This document shows, in pieces, positions 149 to 13,285 of a stretch of 55,700 nt of DNA (positions within the stretch are counted from its first letter, which is position 1; each line of letters starts with the position of its first letter). The notes under the pieces were generated by a model. It saw nothing but the letters and a program-made list of their open reading frames with translations. It searched no databases and was not told where the DNA came from. The position numbers and the translations under genes are program-made. The stretch covers positions 1-55,700 of the forward strand of contig JADHWG010000006.1 in the NCBI GenBank assembly GCA_016783605.1. Reading direction: 5' to 3'. The stretch is from Candidatus Omnitrophota bacterium (GTDB taxonomy: Bacteria > Omnitrophota > Gorgyraeia > Tantalellales > Tantalellaceae).

Positions 149-385
149 TCTGTCGCAAAACATCTTTTTCTGTCATCCTCGCGAACAGACTGTGTCAAAA
201 GTCGGCGACACTTTCTAAAGTGGAGAGCCACTTCCATAAAAACGACTGAAAAAAGTTGTCATCCTCGCGGACGCGGGGATCTGTAGCATAAAGTGGAGTA
301 AATTTTAAAAAGAAACTGCAAAATTCCACTTTTGACACAGTCTGTTCGCGAGGATGACATTTTGGGGGCATTTTGCGACAGCCCC
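149..385. repeat. Composite MITE-like inverted repeat with nested arms
   Basis: The left end (GTCTGTCGCAAAACATC, then TGTCATCCTCGCGAACAGAC and a further CAGACTGTGTCAAAAGT) is the near-perfect reverse complement of the right end at about 328-385. A second motif, TCATCCTCGCGGACGCGG, lies in the middle (about 260). The outer ends match the element at 33897-34026, but here an inner unit bounded by CAGACTGTGTCAAAAGT arms appears to have inserted. There is no ORF inside, so it is non-autonomous. Confidence 0.7.
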
Positions 386-386
386 G

Positions 387-3300
387 TTATACCGCCCTCA
401 TCACCTCTCGTTCCATCTTATGTAGTCTGATCAGATCATTCCAATCCACAGGTCTTATCTTTATAAACAGCTTACCAGATAACGCGAAAAGCCCGACTTT
501 TTTAACCTTTTCAATTAAGTCCTCAGCCATGTCCTTCATCTCGCTTATGGATAATCCTGATATGGAAATAATGCCTTTTACCGCGTCTTTTCGTGCAAAC
601 GTAATATCATTTTCCACAACGCCCTTTCTGTCAGGCCGCGTTAAGTCAAACAGGTTAAACACTTTTATGCTTGCCGCGATACATTTTACAAGCGGTGTCG
701 GTGTACGGAATTTGCCTTGCTTAATTTCTCCCTCAAGATAAACCGTAAACGCTTTATCCGTTATGCCCGGTATCTCTTTAGCAAATGAATACACGATACT
801 GCGCCTTTTCATCTCATCATCGGAAGCTTTCCATTTGAACTGTTTATCTTCCAATCTGCCTAACAGTTTATTACGACCGGACTCATTGTCTTCAAAGATA
901 TAATACGTAATATTCCCCACATTGAACTCCACACTTTTTTTGTCCGCTTCAACGCGCACTCCTTGAACTTCGCGCATATATCCTGAAAATTCCTCAATAG
1001 AAACACCGGACACTTCGCTGTTTATAGGAAGACTGATCATTGCCGGTTTGCCGTCAAACAAATCCTGCGCGCTTGCTTTAAAAGCCTGTTCCAAAAGATC
1101 ATGAAGCGCCTTTTTTATTTCTTTTTCCTTTGCATCACTATCCAAACTCAACGGCTGAAGTTTTCCGTCGATATGTATGCCGGAAGCCACATCCCCGGTC
1201 ATCACCGGAACTTCCGGCATTTGGCTTGTGCTGAAGTCGCCGCGGTCAGAAGAACCTTGCGCATAATCTCGAATCATAGTATTATCAACATCAACAGGCA
1301 TTACAGAACTCGGAAGTATTATCCTGATTCCTTGCCTAATTGCTTTTATTTTCGAAAAATCTTCTGCCTTAACGAGTATTGCCAATAATTTGTCACCACG
1401 TAAAGCGCAATTGAGGTTTTGTTCTTTTCCGGTTGCTTCATCAATTACATTTGCCTCTATGTTAAACTCCATTGACCGTAATTCTAACTTTACTTTCTCC
1501 GGAGTTGAAGCATCACTCATTATCCGATCTACATTCACCAAACAACATTTCATATTTTTAACTGGTTTTGTTCCTGTTTTCGTTTCCACCTCAACATTTT
1601 CAATTTTTAAAACAGGTTCCCTTATGCTTTTTATGTATGCGTCTACGGCATTTTCATGTCTCTCATATTTCGAAGTAAATTCTAAAGCGTTTTTAATATA
1701 CGCATCTATTGCTTCTTCATGTTCGTGATATATTGCTGTTATTTCCTCTTCCGGCATTTCTGCCGTGACAAAGTCGCTGTGGTCAGAATCATCAGTAGAC
1801 ATATCAATATAACCGCTCGCAAGATAACCAAGTCCGCCTACTCTATTTTCAACGAATGTAGTAGCTGGGTTTAATATTTCGAATAACAGTTCATCATATC
1901 CAAATTCTTTTGAAAATTTGACGTTAAACTTTTTACCATCAGGAAAGATCAATGTTGCGGTTGTTCCTACCCCTAAGCGCGGCTCAATCCTCTCCCACTC
2001 CGAACGCAAAGTTTCCTTAAGTGTTTTCGCGACTTGCTCCTTGTCATATGTGTCGTAATCGACATTCAGCGCTTTAGTTCGATTAATTACAACCGGGCTT
2101 TTATCAAAAGGGAAAGAAGGCATCTCTGCCATATGAAAGTCATCGCGAGATCTATTTTTAAAGTAATTACGGCATATATTGCGGGCATTAATTGTATCTA
2201 CGAGTGCTTGTGAACTTGCATTTTTACTTGTGCCAGAATGCGCCGCAAACGCTTTCTTGGAAAATGCCGGTCTAATATCCTTTTCTGTCGCTACCCCATA
2301 CTCTAATCCTAAGACCTTAAACGCATTTACTACTTCGGGTTCTAACGATGCAGAAGTATCCATAGAATCAGTTGCATCGTCTTTTTCACCATTAGATAAA
2401 ATATTCGCCAAATATTTAAGAAAATGCATCACGCTTTGGGGATCATCAACCGTTATCAGAAACTCATATTCCATAATCATATTCTCAAACGCACCAGCTA
2501 CCTCTTCAGCAAAAGACGCGTCTAATTGTAATTCTGTTAACGTGGATCTAAACGCGCGTATAGCTCTTTTGTCATAGATCATTTGAACTATTTTTCCATC
2601 TCTTATTTCAATAAACGGAAGAAACACATGACCACCACTTTGCGACATTTTCTCGAGTATCTTTAGTGCTATAGTCCCGACTAATTTTTTGGCTTGAAGT
2701 TCACGTGTTCTATCTTCTTGAGTCGGAATAGTAAATTCCCGGGCTTTTTTCTGTTCTTGCTCGGAGAGTGATTGTGTTAGGTTTAATAAAAATTTTGTCA
2801 CACCTTGTTTGCTTCTAAAATCTACACCTCCCATTCTGTTTGCCACATTAATGTAATATGCTAAAGCCGCTGAGGCTAACTGGTCATTCATTCCTAACTG
2901 TGTCAATGTTTGTTCGACAAATTTGACGTGACCTCCACTACTAATGTATCGAGTCACTATTCCATTCTGAATTGTCATCATGGAAAGATAAGCGTTGCCA
3001 CTATTGCCCGCCATTTGTTCTAAAAGGTTGAGGGCTATTTTACCCATTGAAACAGGCCCCTCTTGTGCTTGTGCCTTTGCTTTTGAATCTGCCCCTGATA
3101 CAAAAGCTTTGGCCTGTTCTTTCTCTTCTTGTGACAAAACACTTACCAATTCAAGTAAAAATGCTTTAACATCTTGAGGATCATTTACCGTGAGCGTCTT
3201 TCCTCTATTCTTAACGCTGAGATTGAATTCATCCGCTACTCCCTCAGCATAAGACGTATCTAATTTTAATTCTTTCAACGTAGATTTAAACGCGTCTACA

Positions 3301-6300
3301 GCACTTTTGTCGTAAATCATTTGAACTATTTTTCCATCTCTTATTTCAATAAACGGAAGAAACACATGACCATCACCTTGCGACATTTTCTCGAGTATCT
3401 TTAGTGCTATAGTACCGACTAATTTTTTGGCTTGAAGTTCACGTGCTCTATCTTCTTGAGTCGGCATAGCAAATTGCTGGGCTTTTTTCTGTTCTTGCTT
3501 GGAGAGTGATCGTGTTAGATTTAATAAAAATTTTGTCACGCCTTGTTTGCTTCCTAAATCGACGCCTCTCATTTTTTCTGTCGTGTGTATGTAATAGAGA
3601 AGTGCTCCTGAAGCTAACTGGTCATTCATTCCTAACTGTGTCAATGTTTGTTCAACAAATCTGATGTGACGGCTATTACTAACATATTTAGTCACTATCC
3701 CATTTCGAATTGTCATCATGGGAAGTGAAGCGTTGCCACTATTGCCCGCCATTTGTTCTAAAAGGTTGAGAGCTATTTTACCCATCGCCTCATTACCGGT
3801 TAATCCTTGGGCTTTTTTGCTAAAAAATTGTTTAAATTTTCTCGGCATCACTGCCATGCGAAAGTCGTCATGGGCTGCCTCACCCTTTTTCGACATTTTT
3901 GCCGTATCAGATTGTTTGGAGAAAAAACGTTTCTCAATTTTATCAAGCACATCTTTTGCGACTGCTTCAGTTAACTTCGGATCTTTTCTGATATGTTTTA
4001 ATTTCACATCAGGATGTTTCAACATATTTTTTATTTCTTCTTTTTTGCTTTGTTTAATGTTTTTTAATCCTTCTTTTAAGATCGCCTCCAAATTTGTTAT
4101 TTTGACTTTATACTCGTTAACTTTCTTAATCCATCCTTTTTCAATCCAGGTTTCTAATTTAATGTCGTATTCGTCAAGCGCGTCTTGCAACTCTTTTTTT
4201 CCTAGAGTCCCGGGATTCGCGGCAAGATCTAGTTCATGAAATAAACTTTCAATGAATTTTTGGGTGTTACGTGTATAAGTAACATTTACACCATAGGTAT
4301 CTCTATATGAACCAATGAGCCATGGTATTTTAGATTCATTTTTACCGGTTATGACGTTAATAAAACGTGTGGATATGCCAAATTGTTCGTCACATATCTT
4401 CTTAAGTTTCGTTACATTTTTTTCGCCGATCTTATCTACCATAATGTTACGAAGATTAGTGCCATCCTCAAGTAAATCATTCAAAGAATGGGCTTCTAAG
4501 CCGTCATAGGTTTGTTTTGGCGCGCGCGTGTGCGCCATCCTGAAAAGCAAATCCTGAACCGCCTGATGTCCATTATAGGTTAATTTGTCGCAGTCAAATT
4601 CTACTATAACCGCGTTTTCAAAATTCGGATCATATGTTTCGTTTTCTTCTCTTGCGGCGTATACCATTTTATCGTCTATCTCGCCTATTTTTTCATAAAA
4701 TTCAGAATCCGGTTTTTCGTGGGTTAATCTGAGATATCCTCCGGGAACCATTAAAACTATGCCTTTTTTCGCGTCAGTTTCTAAAGCTGTTCTGACGTCA
4801 ACTGATAGTTCCAAAAGATTCTTGCCGCTTTGGGTGCCGGTTATTCCCATTTCTGAAAGCACATGACGCGGGGTAATGTTTGAATTTAATATGCTTGTCT
4901 CCACCATCGTTTCCATTCGGCTTTTGCCTCCGGAAAGCAGGTGAAAATACGGGTTTTCCGTATCTATGGTATCCATGCGCGGCATTACCTCTATATAGGA
5001 ATAACCTTTATTTTTAAACATGCTCTTTAAGTTGTCTGTGTGAAATCCGCCGGTAACAAGAATTGTTACGTTTTTATTCTCTTTTTTGAGTTTTGATTCC
5101 ATGTTTTTTATGAAAGCGTTATCTCTTTTAAGGGAATACGCGTAGAACTTTTCCATATTTTTTCTGAATGAATCGAGTTTTGTTATGTTGTCGATATTCC
5201 CGCTTTCGCGGGAATGACAATAGAGGGGGCGGGAATGACAGTTGGTGAGGGAATGATGTTGAAAAAAATTCAGAAAATTTTGGGTATTAAAACCGGCTTT
5301 ATTCGCTCTGTAATAGTCATAGTCTTCCTTAATAAGGGCGACACTAAACATGTTTTTCATAATTTGAAGGTTTTTATCCAAAGTAAAAAGCGTTTTTTGA
5401 TCATCTGTTTTAAGCAGGCTTTTCATTAACGCGCTTTCAAGCGTTCTTATTTCTTTAAAAAGCTTAACTTTATCTATGCTTTCGTATTTCTTCACATATT
5501 CGGAGTATTTAACTACGTTGGGGAGACTTGCGAAATCCACATTCGCGAAACGCGCTTTTTTAAACAAATATCCGTAAAAGTCTTCACTCGTAATGTTCTC
5601 TTTCTTAAAATCTATGGTCACTTTTACAAGGCGTTCCATTTCAAGCCGGGAGAGTTTAGACTCAAGTTTGCCGATGAGAATAGAGCGTTCGGTATTCGCT
5701 TCCTTAAAGTCTATTCCGTCTTCTTGTTTTAGAATCTCTGTTAGGGAGGTTATGTTGCTAAAAGATGTCTTTTCAATTCCCGAAACTTTCGCTTTATCAG
5801 TAAGCGTCTTTACATACTCTTTCAGATCTAGATCTTTTTCTCTATATGCTTTTATTGTTTCGTCAAGTTCCGCAAGACCGGGAGAATAGATCTTTCGTTT
5901 AAAATTGTTTATTATGTGGGTTAAAAGGCTGAGATATTTATCCGCTTCTTCTTTATGCTGAAGCGATTTTTTGTAGGCGTTTAGATTTGACATATACAGC
6001 TTCTCATTTTCTATCCCGAAAAGCTTTGTTTCAGCAGGGTTATTTATGGCAAAAAATTCAGCCCCGCTCACTCTGCCTTCTTTTACAAAATAATTGCTGA
6101 CTCTTTTTCGTATATTTGGATCTTCTATTTTCGTAAAAACGGATAGATCATAATTACCCTTGCCTCCCTCAAGCATAACAAGATCGACTTTGTAACTATC
6201 CGACAAATGATCAATAATACTCGCGATAGAATGCTGTGCTGAATAGTTGCAGTGAGCGTCCTGGATATGTATTACCGTGTTATCTCCGGTTCCTTGAACT

Positions 6301-6500
6301 CTATCCTTGATTTCCCCAAAGGAAAGAGGAATTTGCATATCCTGGACACTAAAATTAGGCGCGGGAAGACCGGGACTGACTGCCATAGCAGATTCCACAA
6401 GAATATTCGCGCCCAGCGCGTTAAACAAAAAAGACCATAAAGTGACAAGACAAATTAAACTTCTAAACGGCCTTTTTACCATTTTGGTATTGCGATTCAT
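387..6500 (-). CDS. Giant exported multidomain protein with Tiki/ChaN-like N-terminus and repeated modules
   Basis: This is a 2037-residue protein of unknown function. Residues 1-40 form a Sec-type signal (basic start, hydrophobic SLICLVTLWSFLFNALG, cleavage-like SAMA), so it should act outside the cytoplasm. Residues about 70-500 contain HIQDAHCNYSAQ (~78-89), MLEGGKG (~109) and GGFHTD (~481); their spacing resembles the ChaN/TraB/EreA (Tiki) hydrolase-like fold, a tentative match. Residues about 905-1375 hold four tandem modules of ~115 residues in A-B-A-B order. A short motif, DF-x2-(A/S)-x-MP, recurs at about 875, 1450, 1572 and 1751 and separates the later domains. A repeat-derived stretch (CHSRESGN, ~425) is translated in frame. 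The start is supported by GGAGG upstream and by a promoter at 6560-6588. Confidence 0.85.
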   Translation of the reverse strand: MNRNTKMVKRPFRSLICLVTLWSFLFNALGANILVESAMAVSPGLPAPNFSVQDMQIPLSFGEIKDRVQGTGDNTVIHIQDAHCNYSAQHSIASIIDHLSDSYKVDLVMLEGGKGNYDLSVFTKIEDPNIRKRVSNYFVKEGRVSGAEFFAINNPAETKLFGIENEKLYMSNLNAYKKSLQHKEEADKYLSLLTHIINNFKRKIYSPGLAELDETIKAYREKDLDLKEYVKTLTDKAKVSGIEKTSFSNITSLTEILKQEDGIDFKEANTERSILIGKLESKLSRLEMERLVKVTIDFKKENITSEDFYGYLFKKARFANVDFASLPNVVKYSEYVKKYESIDKVKLFKEIRTLESALMKSLLKTDDQKTLFTLDKNLQIMKNMFSVALIKEDYDYYRANKAGFNTQNFLNFFQHHSLTNCHSRPLYCHSRESGNIDNITKLDSFRKNMEKFYAYSLKRDNAFIKNMESKLKKENKNVTILVTGGFHTDNLKSMFKNKGYSYIEVMPRMDTIDTENPYFHLLSGGKSRMETMVETSILNSNITPRHVLSEMGITGTQSGKNLLELSVDVRTALETDAKKGIVLMVPGGYLRLTHEKPDSEFYEKIGEIDDKMVYAAREENETYDPNFENAVIVEFDCDKLTYNGHQAVQDLLFRMAHTRAPKQTYDGLEAHSLNDLLEDGTNLRNIMVDKIGEKNVTKLKKICDEQFGISTRFINVITGKNESKIPWLIGSYRDTYGVNVTYTRNTQKFIESLFHELDLAANPGTLGKKELQDALDEYDIKLETWIEKGWIKKVNEYKVKITNLEAILKEGLKNIKQSKKEEIKNMLKHPDVKLKHIRKDPKLTEAVAKDVLDKIEKRFFSKQSDTAKMSKKGEAAHDDFRMAVMPRKFKQFFSKKAQGLTGNEAMGKIALNLLEQMAGNSGNASLPMMTIRNGIVTKYVSNSRHIRFVEQTLTQLGMNDQLASGALLYYIHTTEKMRGVDLGSKQGVTKFLLNLTRSLSKQEQKKAQQFAMPTQEDRARELQAKKLVGTIALKILEKMSQGDGHVFLPFIEIRDGKIVQMIYDKSAVDAFKSTLKELKLDTSYAEGVADEFNLSVKNRGKTLTVNDPQDVKAFLLELVSVLSQEEKEQAKAFVSGADSKAKAQAQEGPVSMGKIALNLLEQMAGNSGNAYLSMMTIQNGIVTRYISSGGHVKFVEQTLTQLGMNDQLASAALAYYINVANRMGGVDFRSKQGVTKFLLNLTQSLSEQEQKKAREFTIPTQEDRTRELQAKKLVGTIALKILEKMSQSGGHVFLPFIEIRDGKIVQMIYDKRAIRAFRSTLTELQLDASFAEEVAGAFENMIMEYEFLITVDDPQSVMHFLKYLANILSNGEKDDATDSMDTSASLEPEVVNAFKVLGLEYGVATEKDIRPAFSKKAFAAHSGTSKNASSQALVDTINARNICRNYFKNRSRDDFHMAEMPSFPFDKSPVVINRTKALNVDYDTYDKEQVAKTLKETLRSEWERIEPRLGVGTTATLIFPDGKKFNVKFSKEFGYDELLFEILNPATTFVENRVGGLGYLASGYIDMSTDDSDHSDFVTAEMPEEEITAIYHEHEEAIDAYIKNALEFTSKYERHENAVDAYIKSIREPVLKIENVEVETKTGTKPVKNMKCCLVNVDRIMSDASTPEKVKLELRSMEFNIEANVIDEATGKEQNLNCALRGDKLLAILVKAEDFSKIKAIRQGIRIILPSSVMPVDVDNTMIRDYAQGSSDRGDFSTSQMPEVPVMTGDVASGIHIDGKLQPLSLDSDAKEKEIKKALHDLLEQAFKASAQDLFDGKPAMISLPINSEVSGVSIEEFSGYMREVQGVRVEADKKSVEFNVGNITYYIFEDNESGRNKLLGRLEDKQFKWKASDDEMKRRSIVYSFAKEIPGITDKAFTVYLEGEIKQGKFRTPTPLVKCIAASIKVFNLFDLTRPDRKGVVENDITFARKDAVKGIISISGLSISEMKDMAEDLIEKVKKVGLFALSGKLFIKIRPVDWNDLIRLHKMEREVMRAV
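5194..5246. repeat. Palindromic repeat translated inside the giant gene
   Basis: ATTCCCGC-TTTC-GCGGGAAT (5196-5215) is a perfect hairpin followed by a partial second copy, GCGGGAATGACA (5229-5240). It is read in frame as part of the giant protein and yields the peptides CHSRPLY and CHSRESGN, a typical translation of intergenic 'GCGGGAATGACA' repeats. Confidence 0.75.
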
Positions 6501-6654: not shown

Positions 6655-7953
6655 TCAAATGAGGGATAATTTTTTCACGAATTTGTTAAAAAGGGCTACC
6701 GGGATAAAATATATGTCTTTGCCCTCTTTGCGTATTTTGCAAGAAATATCTTTCGTAACAACCACAGCTCTTCTTATACGCTTGTGTGTCTTAAAGAAAG
6801 AAATAAAACTCTTAGGTATTATCGGTCTGCCCTTATTTTGCCACTTAACTTCGATTGGTATTAATTCATCGTTTCCTTCCAATATAAAATCGATTTCCGT
6901 ACCAATCTTTGTCCGCCAAAAATAGACATTGTACGGAATGGGTTTATACTTGATCAACTCACTAAAAATAAAATTTTCTACATAGGCGCCCAAATTTGAT
7001 CGATATTTGATTTGCCCAAAATTTCCCAAAATAAAATTGATAATTCCGCTATCTAACAAGTAAATCTTCGGCATTTTGCTAATTTCTGTTCTTTTGTTAG
7101 AGCAGAAAGGATTCAACACTTTTATAATAAAAGTTTGTTCCAAGATGTTCAAATTTTTCAATACTTGACGCCGATCTATTTTGAGAGTGTTAGATAATCC
7201 ATTTACATTAAGCAAATTGCCTATTTGTGAAGCCAAAATTTTTAGAAGATTATTATACGCTGATATATCTTCGCCCTTAATGAGAGCCTTAATGTCTTTC
7301 TGAATATAAGAATTGTAAATATCCTGCAATTCTTCTATTTTCTCTGTTTTACTATGAAGTAATGCCACTTTGGGATAGCCACCAAACAGAAAATATTCTT
7401 TAAGATAAGCATTGTTATAAGTATCAACTACGGCAGATGAAATGTTTTTGAAATCAAGTTTTTCATACCTCGCGTATTCATCCTTACTTTTAAATCTAAG
7501 ATACTCCTCAAAACTTAACGGATACAAATTGTAAACTTTTTTTCTTCCGGCAAGTGATTCCTTCAGATGTTTTTGAATCTCCATAGATGCTGAACCGGAT
7601 GCCAAAATTTTAACATGGGGAAAAAGATCATAAATAACCTTAAACAATTTCGTCGCGTTTTTTATATAATGAAACTCATCAATGATTAGAAACAACTTAT
7701 GCTTTCTAATATCTACCCCATTACTCCGCAGATAAGATTCTAAGGTGTCAATATCCTGACAAATATTCAAGTGTTTTACATCCTCTAAATCGAAATAAAA
7801 AAGTTTGTCACTTTCGGGAATGGTTTTCTTATACATGTTCATCAGAGTGGTTTTCCCAACCTGGCGGCTTCCCATGATAATGTTGATGCGATTGTGCTTA
7901 AAACCCTTCTTTAATTTATCCAAAAGCAATCTGTCAACGTATTTTTTACTCAT
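6655..7953 (-). CDS. AAA ATPase with C-terminal DUF4143 domain
   Basis: This 432-residue protein belongs to the archaeal/bacterial AAA_14 plus DUF4143 family, whose cellular role is not established. The Walker A motif is GSRQVGKTTLM (~28-38) and Walker B is FLIIDEFHY (~88-96), followed by an arginine-rich sensor region. The C-terminal part (~300-410) has the DUF4143 features ending in EIDFIL...IPIEVKW, a pattern like PD-(D/E)xK nuclease-type folds. The full length matches the family. It is monocistronic: its own promoter lies at 7987-8015 and GGAG precedes the start. Copies of this family are often mobile or accessory, and the gene lacks any functional link to its neighbours. Confidence 0.9.
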   Translation of the reverse strand: MSKKYVDRLLLDKLKKGFKHNRINIIMGSRQVGKTTLMNMYKKTIPESDKLFYFDLEDVKHLNICQDIDTLESYLRSNGVDIRKHKLFLIIDEFHYIKNATKLFKVIYDLFPHVKILASGSASMEIQKHLKESLAGRKKVYNLYPLSFEEYLRFKSKDEYARYEKLDFKNISSAVVDTYNNAYLKEYFLFGGYPKVALLHSKTEKIEELQDIYNSYIQKDIKALIKGEDISAYNNLLKILASQIGNLLNVNGLSNTLKIDRRQVLKNLNILEQTFIIKVLNPFCSNKRTEISKMPKIYLLDSGIINFILGNFGQIKYRSNLGAYVENFIFSELIKYKPIPYNVYFWRTKIGTEIDFILEGNDELIPIEVKWQNKGRPIIPKSFISFFKTHKRIRRAVVVTKDISCKIRKEGKDIYFIPVALFNKFVKKLSLI

Positions 7954-11328: not shown

Positions 11329-12027
11329 TTATTTTTTTTGCGGCAATTTTAATCCCAATTCTTTCGCGATCGCTTTCATGTCCTCCCATACGTCTTTTTT
11401 GCCGCTTTGGTTTCGCAGGAGATATGCGGGGTGGTATGTGGGCATAAGTTTTATTCCGTGGTAATCATAAAATTTTCCTCGAAGGCGGCTTATGGGGGTC
11501 TCCGAATTTAGAAGTGTTTGAGCGGAAAACTTGCCGAGAGAGCAGATCACTTTTGGTTTTATGATATCTATTTGTTTTAAAAGATACGGCGTGCATGCTG
11601 AGATCTCCGTCGGAAGCGGATTTCTGTTTTGCGGGGGGCGGCATTTAAGAATGTTGCCGATAAAAACATCTTCCCTTTTGAGACCGATGGATTCAATTAT
11701 TTTCGTTAGAAGCTGTCCCGCGCGGCCGACAAAGGGTTCGCCTTGTTGATCTTCATCTCTCCCCGGCGCCTCTCCGACAAACATAAGTGGTGCCTTGGGA
11801 GAACCCGCGCCGAAAACAAAACTTATACGCGTTTTGCCCAAAGGACACTTTTGGCAGGACGAAATGTTATTTTTGTATTCTTCCAGTGAAACCTTTTTTT
11901 TATGTTTTTTCGTGTTTTTTTTCACTTGTCTTCCCGCAATACAAAATTCCTCAACACCGGAAAGTTTTTCCAATTCAACCACACGTTTTACGCTGTTTAT
12001 CAGAATTTCTTTTTTGCTTATTTTCAT
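11329..12027 (-). CDS. Family-4 uracil-DNA glycosylase (Fe-S)
   Basis: It removes uracil from DNA to start base-excision repair. The 232-residue protein has motif A GEAPGRDEDQQGEPFVG (~85-101) and motif B TYHPAYLLRN (~200-209), as in thermophile-type UDGa. Four Cys placed as CQKC, CRPP and ACTPY are the expected 4Fe-4S ligands. The N-terminal ~45 residues form a lysine-rich lead-in. I chose ATG at 12027 because AGGAG lies 5 bases before it; a longer frame exists only because a GGGCACGGCATGCC repeat upstream is open. It may be co-transcribed with priA. Confidence 0.94.
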   Translation of the reverse strand: MKISKKEILINSVKRVVELEKLSGVEEFCIAGRQVKKNTKKHKKKVSLEEYKNNISSCQKCPLGKTRISFVFGAGSPKAPLMFVGEAPGRDEDQQGEPFVGRAGQLLTKIIESIGLKREDVFIGNILKCRPPQNRNPLPTEISACTPYLLKQIDIIKPKVICSLGKFSAQTLLNSETPISRLRGKFYDYHGIKLMPTYHPAYLLRNQSGKKDVWEDMKAIAKELGLKLPQKK

Positions 12028-12060
12028 TTGTCTCCTAATTATATTGTCTTCCACATCATT

Positions 12061-12135
12061 GGGCACGGCATGCCGTGCCCCTACGGGATTTTTTCGATTC
12101 ACATTAAATATGGGCACATGCAATGTGCCCCTACG
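12061..12135. repeat. Two REP-like hairpins in tandem
   Basis: GGGCACGGCATGCCGTGCCC-CTACG (12061-12085) is followed after a ~27-base spacer by GGGCACATGCAATGTGCCC-CTACG (12112-12135). The arms are the same and the inner palindromes differ, next to each other between the UDG and MGDG-type genes. They could act as a bidirectional terminator. Confidence 0.75.
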
Positions 12136-12154
12136 AATTCAAAATAAAAACGAA

Positions 12155-13285
12155 TTAATCGAGAGATTGGCTGACTATTTTCGCTATTTCTTCCGCGGCG
12201 TATGGGCGCCTTACTTTATCGATGGAGCTTTTAAGCGTATTGTATACTTCTTCGGATGAAAATATTTCGTCTACAACACGCGGAATTCCTTTGGCGCTTT
12301 CAACTTTTATCGCCGCGCCGGCTTCTTTCAAAAATTCCTCGTTCCATGTCTCCTGTCCCGGGATCGAACCGAAAAGGATCATCGGCAAGCGCGCGCTTAA
12401 CGCCTCCGTTACGCTTATTCCTCCGGCTTTTGTTATCATAAGATCCGATACCGCCATAAGTTTGGCGACTTCATCCGTAAAGGCGAACTGAATGATCGGG
12501 AACTTAAGTTTCGGTTTCAATTCCTCCACATTTTTGTACGCGACCTTGTTGTGCCCGCAAACTACGATCACCTGCACATCCGCCCGGCAAGAATTAAGCG
12601 ATAAGAGCATCTGTTCCATCGGACCGACTCCAAACCCTCCCGACATTAAAAAAATGGTTTTTTTGGTTTCGTCCAACTTATAGTTTCGTTTCAATTCAGG
12701 AATATCGAATTCTTGGTAAAACTCCGCCATCGTCGAGATGCCGGTTACGTCGATCTTTTCTTTGGGAATACCGCGTTTTGCCACTTCTCTCGCGGCGAAT
12801 TCCGATCCGACAAAAAATCTGTCTATATCCGGCGACAGCCAAAAACTGTGCGGCCCGTTATCTGTGATAAGAGTGTATGTTTTTGCTTTAAAATTTTTAG
12901 TTTCCTTTAAAATACTCATAACATTCGGAAGGAAAAAATGTGTCGCTACGATCACATCCGGATTTTCCCGGATCAGCATTTTTCCGGCTCCGACCAGGCT
13001 GTAATAGTCCAACACCGCCCGCATTTTACGGCTTATGGCGTCAACAAAAGGAATATTCGAAAAATAATATAACGCCGCCCAAAGCCATTTTGCCTTAGAC
13101 ATCATGAAAACATAAAAATCGAGATACAGAAATTTATACGCTTTATTCGCGTAGTCAAGCACATCGACATTCTCGATATTCAGATCTTTTTCGCGTTTTT
13201 TAAACGCGTTGAAGATCGCAATCGCCGCTTTCTTGTGCCCCATTCCCGCCGTTGAATAAAGTATGATTATCTTTTTTTTGGCCAT
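12155..13285 (-). CDS. MGDG-synthase/UgtP-like lipid glycosyltransferase
   Basis: This 376-residue GT28-type transferase has the MGDG synthase N-terminal domain: IILYSTAGMGHKKAAIAI (residues ~6-23) with the glycine-rich acceptor loop, and ENPDVIVATHFF (~120). The C-terminal donor-binding domain has FLMSGGFGVGPMEQML (~205-220), SDLMITKAGGISVTEAL (~290-306) and a PGQETWN loop. Relatives make mono- or di-glycosyldiacylglycerol at the inner membrane, so a glycolipid product is likely but the sugar is unknown. ATG at 13285 is preferred (GGAAG 8 bases upstream, and it starts MAKKKIIILYS); the longer frame extends into a repeat. Confidence 0.88.
   Translation of the reverse strand: MAKKKIIILYSTAGMGHKKAAIAIFNAFKKREKDLNIENVDVLDYANKAYKFLYLDFYVFMMSKAKWLWAALYYFSNIPFVDAISRKMRAVLDYYSLVGAGKMLIRENPDVIVATHFFLPNVMSILKETKNFKAKTYTLITDNGPHSFWLSPDIDRFFVGSEFAAREVAKRGIPKEKIDVTGISTMAEFYQEFDIPELKRNYKLDETKKTIFLMSGGFGVGPMEQMLLSLNSCRADVQVIVVCGHNKVAYKNVEELKPKLKFPIIQFAFTDEVAKLMAVSDLMITKAGGISVTEALSARLPMILFGSIPGQETWNEEFLKEAGAAIKVESAKGIPRVVDEIFSSEEVYNTLKSSIDKVRRPYAAEEIAKIVSQSLD

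Follow-up and report, generated by a model that had tools for sequence, protein, structure and literature searches.

A 2037-residue Omnitrophota protein with A-B-A-B modules belongs to a phylum-wide family of header–passenger–tail proteins

What kind of protein carries an array of alternating A and B modules in its middle, and to what do the parts on either side of that array belong? The question is raised by a gene of a Candidatus Omnitrophota bacterium (assembly GCA_016783605.1, contig JADHWG010000006.1). The stretch of DNA analysed (hereafter the window) is 55,700 nucleotides long and is a complete contig (C48) of a 1.65 Mb genome that is 95% complete; the gene is a single open frame encoding 2037 amino acids (aa), the length given by an initial annotation. 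That annotation, made from the sequence alone, had described an exported protein of A-B-A-B modules with a Tiki/ChaN-like N-terminus. It had missed that, as sequence comparison indicates, the window protein is the product of one of five genes in its genome, and of hundreds in the phylum, that begin with the same domain—which we call the header—and have a C-terminal domain and a short tail in common. Between these ends lies a lineage-specific passenger, and in one protein of this family, which spans the phylum, the A-B-A-B repeat forms the variable middle.

That the header–passenger–tail family is real seems to us practically certain. In the window's own genome, residues 1–540 match four paralogues (C47, 2645 aa; C35a, 3585 aa; C35b, 5204 aa; and C10, truncated where its contig ends) with headers 25–46% identical; the paralogues have header and C-terminal parts in common and middles that are mostly unrelated. 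Across the phylum the header is present in 173 of the 384 genomes sampled, often in several copies per genome. All 79 named loci carrying header relatives are from Omnitrophota, and header ORFs (open reading frames) reach ~13,000 aa, again with mostly unrelated middles. A plasmid search gave no match, and a viral-contig search gave one contig with one header gene, L189 (IMGVR_UViG_3300045144_000334), which is likely to be misclassified or a host fragment. The earlier statement that the full plan is unmatched among known proteins holds for the middle and fails for both ends, which are found phylum-wide.

Giant ORFs of more than 20 kb occur in many Omnitrophota; Seymour et al. 2023 (PMC10066038) describe most of them as poorly conserved and sparse in annotated domains, and a second paper (PMC12419801) mentions lipocone domains in gigantic multidomain proteins of the phylum. 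The published giants are like the window family in phylum, size class, multidomain build and proposed role in predation or symbiosis. The terms 'N-terminal', 'C-terminal' and 'signal peptide' are absent from the text of PMC10066038, and the openly accessible literature yielded no account of a header or tail common to Omnitrophota giants; the novelty is provisional.

AlphaFold models the header with a pLDDT (predicted local distance difference test) of 92 and a pTM (predicted template modelling score) of 0.88. Invariant or nearly so in 122 header sequences are Q80, D81, H83, E111, G112, E148, G162, E164, Y169, E260, Y335, R459 and GG-x-H487, all of which the window protein retains; in the model, H83 and E111 come after strands and H487 after a C-terminal strand. 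The EreA/ChaN/Tiki superfamily is marked by strand-end histidine motifs (first xxH, last GxxH) together with a conserved glutamate and arginine, and this set is present in the header (119–122 sequences). Like ChaN (PF04187), the erythromycin esterase EreC (6xcq/6xcs) and HopBA1 (5t09), the header has a strand-end H motif, an E after the next strand, a C-terminal G-x-x-H and a conserved R; unlike them, it has a large helical insertion and giant passengers fused to it, and its Pfam and Foldseek scores are weak. EreC, BcR135 and HopBA1 are within the top nine Foldseek matches in the PDB (E 0.12–0.54, probability 0.12–0.72), PF04187 matches 2 of 64 header members (best E 0.056), and no related PDB sequence was found for the header. 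The Tiki/ChaN-like pattern first noticed at the N-terminus is borne out by the invariance of D81, H83, E111, E164, R459 and G-G-x-H487, and membership of the superfamily is likely but not proven. Because the H/E/R/H residues (H83, E111, R459, H487) are invariant, we consider it rather likely that the header is catalytic; it would then be a metal-dependent hydrolase or peptidase of the EreA/ChaN/Tiki type. The sole Pfam return for the window protein is a borderline DUF1722 match, and an NCBIfam scan gave nothing close to its cut-offs. Membership of DUF1722 was rejected for the header: the match (E 4e-5 in 10 of 64 members) spans just 59 residues of the helical insertion.

The second shared element ends at the stop codon. 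Over ~25 residues its consensus is L-x-I-x-x-I-[DN]-[WFY]-x-x-I-x-x-W-x-x-A-x-x-x-V-L-x-[SA]-[LVA], and this stretch can be aligned, with at most a few gaps, across C35b and 35 of the 43 header ORFs whose stop is visible. Among the eight exceptions, three (L054, L059, L070) carry the tail in the next ORF, probably through frameshifts, and one (L063) is masked; four (L037, L075, L082, L125) have neither tail nor explanation. When a tail hidden Markov model (HMM) was applied to 9337 frames, 41 matches reached E<0.01, all ending at most two residues from a stop; most of these were training sequences, and the following tests weigh more. In whole-genome searches (five genomes, four with matches), 12 of 12 tail matches at E<0.02 outside contig C16 fell in header ORFs, while of the two matches on C16 one lies in a frame that the contig start truncates, with its header probably on C10, and the other in a 46-aa frame. 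Among 20 non-training giants (~4,500–12,700 aa) whose ends were inspected, four matched at E<0.01; in most of the remainder the motif can be recognised by eye, in a few it cannot, and two regions are cut by the contig end. Seven compact headers of other families (532–561 aa) have no tail. C10:1-1167 is a header cut by the contig end and C16:1-8856 a tail-bearing 2951-aa frame open at the contig end; the two are probably one ~3340-aa gene split in the assembly.

The tail is the end of a C-terminal domain of ~250 residues, which in the window protein is 57% identical to its counterpart in genome G002. Its cluster holds 29 C-termini, and profile comparison joins three more clusters, for 38 of 56 C-termini in all. 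Like the C-terminal domain (CTD) of type IX secretion (T9SS) cargo and like type I secretion signals, the tail is a conserved C-terminus on otherwise unrelated passengers; unlike in those systems, the family adds a signal-like N-terminus and an enzyme-like header, and no matching exporter was identified. To our knowledge the tail sequence is unlike either kind of signal, and neither Pfam nor NCBIfam found a T9SS C-terminal domain in the window protein, even at E 1 and 0.5. A role as sorting or processing signal is a reading of the tail to which we give slightly less than even weight; either a dedicated exporter or the header itself would then recognise it.

Could the ends owe their conservation chiefly to recombination of paralogues at these sites, as happens in polymorphic-toxin loci, without any need for a joint sorting role? 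Same-genome paralogues that share ends and not middles would fit, as would the A/B-type module common to the window and C47 proteins and the internal duplication of ~13 of 103 passengers, of which A-B-A-B is one case. However, same-genome headers are so diverged that recent exchange through them is unlikely, and stand-alone headers without a tail imply that the tail tracks the passenger; we regard this explanation as improbable. The family is like polymorphic toxins in its conserved N-terminal part, variable remainder and paralogue diversity within one genome, and unlike them in being conserved at both ends. Pfam and NCBIfam scans of the window protein brought up no toxin family, and no immunity gene was recognised, the upstream neighbour being an AAA_14/DUF4143 ATPase gene and the gene's downstream side reaching the contig end.

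The signal-peptide-like start aligns with paralogue starts that end AWAQ or AEAK, in keeping with the exported protein first proposed, and on the strength of this N-terminus header–passenger–tail proteins are very probably exported, presumably via Sec. Pfam assigned domains in some of 28 sampled passengers: ABC1 kinase-like in three, PPDK_N with PEP-utilizers in two, Hanks kinase (Pkinase) in two, M48 in two and a metallophosphatase in one. Single ORFs join such domains to both ends: L122 runs from a header through matches to a kinase domain, HGDIKPEN motif included, to the C-terminal domain and its tail, and in L055 and L107 PEP-utilizers and PPDK_N stand between header and tail. Because ATP-dependent enzymes here follow a signal peptide, and Hanks kinase and PPDK ATP-grasp passengers need ATP, these would probably work inside another cell, which would suit the predatory or epibiotic lifestyle that has been proposed for Omnitrophota; that some passengers do act in other cells is a possibility we view with some doubt. 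By eye, the L095 passenger holds a tandem pair of kinase-like repeats with 51% identity as well as stretches resembling CPBP (EEFIYRG) and a methyltransferase, none of which Pfam matched, and a caspase-like GHG...AECC stretch can be made out in the passenger of the header–tail protein L100. A zincin-like GHAG..HE stretch was rejected as a defining part, being present in just 6 of 104 passengers.

The published reading of giant ORFs from Omnitrophota (PMC10066038) leans towards adhesion or a coat. The giants would then be structural at the cell surface, the header non-catalytic, the tail an anchor and the A/B modules spacers or ligand-binding repeats. C35a, with its PKD domain and many hydrophobic segments, suits such a role, and stalks typically have tandem modules. 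However, the invariant H/E/R/H set speaks for catalysis, kinase and PPDK passengers fit a surface structure poorly, and a simple scan found no strongly hydrophobic segment in the window protein. On this evidence an adhesin or coat is unlikely, if not negligibly so.

In the window passenger, the A-B-A-B array is accompanied by a region of ~350 residues and by other regions that are unique. The modular layout and its two-level duplication proved to be as first described: A1 and A2 are 75% identical, B1 and B2 66%, and A and B 26–35%, with Smith-Waterman z-scores against shuffles of 13.8–21.8 between A and B. The 'very high identity' and 'recent AB doubling' of the initial annotation need revision. 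In the DNA, a gapless 551-nt direct repeat (87% identical, spacing 738) covers A and the first half of B, where residues 906–1088 and 1152–1334 differ by a synonymous divergence (dS) of 0.26 and a nonsynonymous divergence (dN) of 0.11 (omega 0.42), and to this part the description applies. It does not apply to the rest of B (residues 1089–1128 against 1335–1374), where dN is 0.65 and dS ~2.5, the latter estimated from just 40 codons and near saturation. Because identity ends half-way through B, an old array in which one tract was later homogenised by conversion or unequal crossover appears to fit better. An assembly artefact, raised at the outset as a way in which the repeat might dissolve, is unlikely, since the copies differ by 70 substitutions and contain one old segment. 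B2 is 47% identical to the single module of C47 and 40% to that of a G013 protein, closer than the other modules, which points to a single B-like module as the likely ancestor; it would have given A-B, which was doubled and then in part homogenised, whether through gene conversion or through unequal crossover.

The proposed module counts across Omnitrophota would be zero nearly everywhere: in the search of the 384 genomes the module was detected in two genomes of one family only, the window's own (window and C47 proteins) and G013, with no confident match beyond them and with sub-threshold matches (E 0.003–0.1) taken as chance. Nor did a known domain emerge from profiles (Pfam, NCBIfam), PDB sequences or fold comparison, in which the B1 model found nothing better than E 1.6 among PDB and viral structures; the model came from six input sequences, and the five models span pLDDT 70–89. 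Judged by these searches, the A/B module is an orphan domain and a lineage-specific insert, perhaps a young binding or spacer module.

The header of the window protein also contains an in-frame palindromic repeat, which adds ~16 residues (CHSRESGN) in a low-confidence loop (pLDDT <50 at model residues 383–389); an insert in C35b, NPHPEQGEGS...EESGNS, resembles it. Such an element inside the header might suggest a decaying, pseudogene-like copy that gathers repeats. However, the 2037-codon frame and the tail are intact, all invariant header residues are kept and dN/dS is 0.42 in the repeat tract, which makes decay very improbable.

The remaining features are listed with their coordinates in Table 1. 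A DFxx[AS]xMP motif recurs four times between domains of the window protein and marks a possible linker or cleavage site. DFxxAxMP was observed 7 times against 0.7 in shuffled sequence, two of the seven being the window sequence recounted and only two independent proteins being involved; L109 carries a related EVTSAKMP. The gene adjoins the contig end on its downstream side, where a perfect 32-bp inverted repeat may be an element like a MITE (miniature inverted-repeat transposable element) or a nested terminator. Three of the five header genes have an AAA_14/DUF4143 ATPase gene immediately upstream in the same orientation (the ATPase genes at window 6655-7953, G000 C47 ~11405-12643 and G000 C10 1404-2816), and the genome has 16 such ATPase genes in total. 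As an obligatory header partner the ATPase was rejected: G012 has one copy and G084 none, despite many header genes.

Table 1. Features of the gene and its flanks, in window coordinates
Feature	Residues	Position	Strand	Basis or remark
Inverted repeat, perfect, 32 bp		171-202 and 328-359		encloses smaller GTCATCCTCGCGG element; directly downstream of gene
Whole gene (signal, header, passenger, C-terminal domain, tail)	2037 aa	387..6500	minus	single open frame
C-terminal tail	2006-2037	390..485	minus	alignment and tail HMM; ends KIRPVDWNDLIRLHKMEREVMRAV at stop
C-terminal domain	~1770-2037	390..1193	minus	one cluster with 28 other C-termini
DFxxSxMP motif, copy 4	1755-1762	1215..1238	minus	sequence
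DFxxAxMP motif, copy 3	1576-1583	1752..1775	minus	sequence
DFxxAxMP motif, copy 2	1454-1461	2118..2141	minus	sequence
Module B2	1267-1391	2328..2702	minus	closest to single modules of C47 and G013 proteins
Homogenised tract, copy 2		2497..3047	minus	551-nt direct repeat; dS 0.26
Module A2	1145-1266	2703..3068	minus	identity comparison
Module B1	1021-1144	3069..3440	minus	identity comparison and AlphaFold model (pLDDT 89, pTM 0.84, alpha-beta3-alpha4)
Homogenised tract, copy 1		3235..3785	minus	551-nt direct repeat; dS 0.26
Module A1	899-1020	3441..3806	minus	identity comparison
DFxxAxMP motif, copy 1	879-886	3843..3866	minus	sequence
Header domain, EreA/ChaN/Tiki-like	45-545	4866..6368	minus	homologue searches, AlphaFold, Foldseek, profiles
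C-terminal invariant motif	G484-G485-F-H487	5040..5051	minus	GG and H in 119/119
Palindromic repeat GTCATTCCCGCGAAAGCGGGAAT, in frame		5175..5246	minus	low-confidence header loop; ~30 matches in own genome
Second invariant motif	E111-G112	6165..6170	minus	alignment; directly after a strand
First invariant motif	Q80-D81-A82-H83	6252..6263	minus	D81, H83 122/122; Q80 121; A82 118; strand end from model
Signal-peptide-like start	1-41	6378..6500	minus	KR-rich, hydrophobic stretch, end ...ESAMA; read by eye, aligned with paralogues
AAA_14/DUF4143 ATPase gene		6655-7953	minus	directly upstream of gene

We favour a reading in which the window protein is a member of an Omnitrophota family of large to giant, probably exported header–passenger–tail proteins, with an enzyme as header and a signal as tail; taken with all its parts, we give it an even chance. 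Passengers would be the working parts, shuffled and duplicated among paralogues. Several points weigh against it: each superfamily match of the header is weak on its own, export is argued solely from an N-terminus read by eye, no exporter gene is linked to the tail, a Pfam scan recognised no enzyme in the window protein's own passenger, and ATP-dependent domains occur in a minority of the sampled passengers. A bolder version—many Omnitrophota giants as one family, with a secreted Tiki/ChaN-like enzyme in front and a new sorting or processing tail, forming a delivery format that carries interchangeable passengers, kinases included, into prey or host cells—is speculative and, as a whole, rather unlikely.

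What does the family mean for the phylum? Header genes account, by ORF length, for ~3% of the window's own genome (~50 kb, five genes) and ~8–9% of that of the relative G012 (~171 kb, ten genes). The giant ORFs have been taken to point to a predatory or symbiotic lifestyle, but were described as poorly conserved and difficult to interpret (PMC10066038); by their common header and the tail that abuts the stop, many of them can now be searched for as one family. On a small scale, the A-B-A-B array illustrates passenger growth by duplication followed by homogenisation. As far as sequence can tell, the header–passenger–tail signature gives a common mark to the 'giant genes' of uncultured Omnitrophota, and this definition of the family makes the function of the giants testable.

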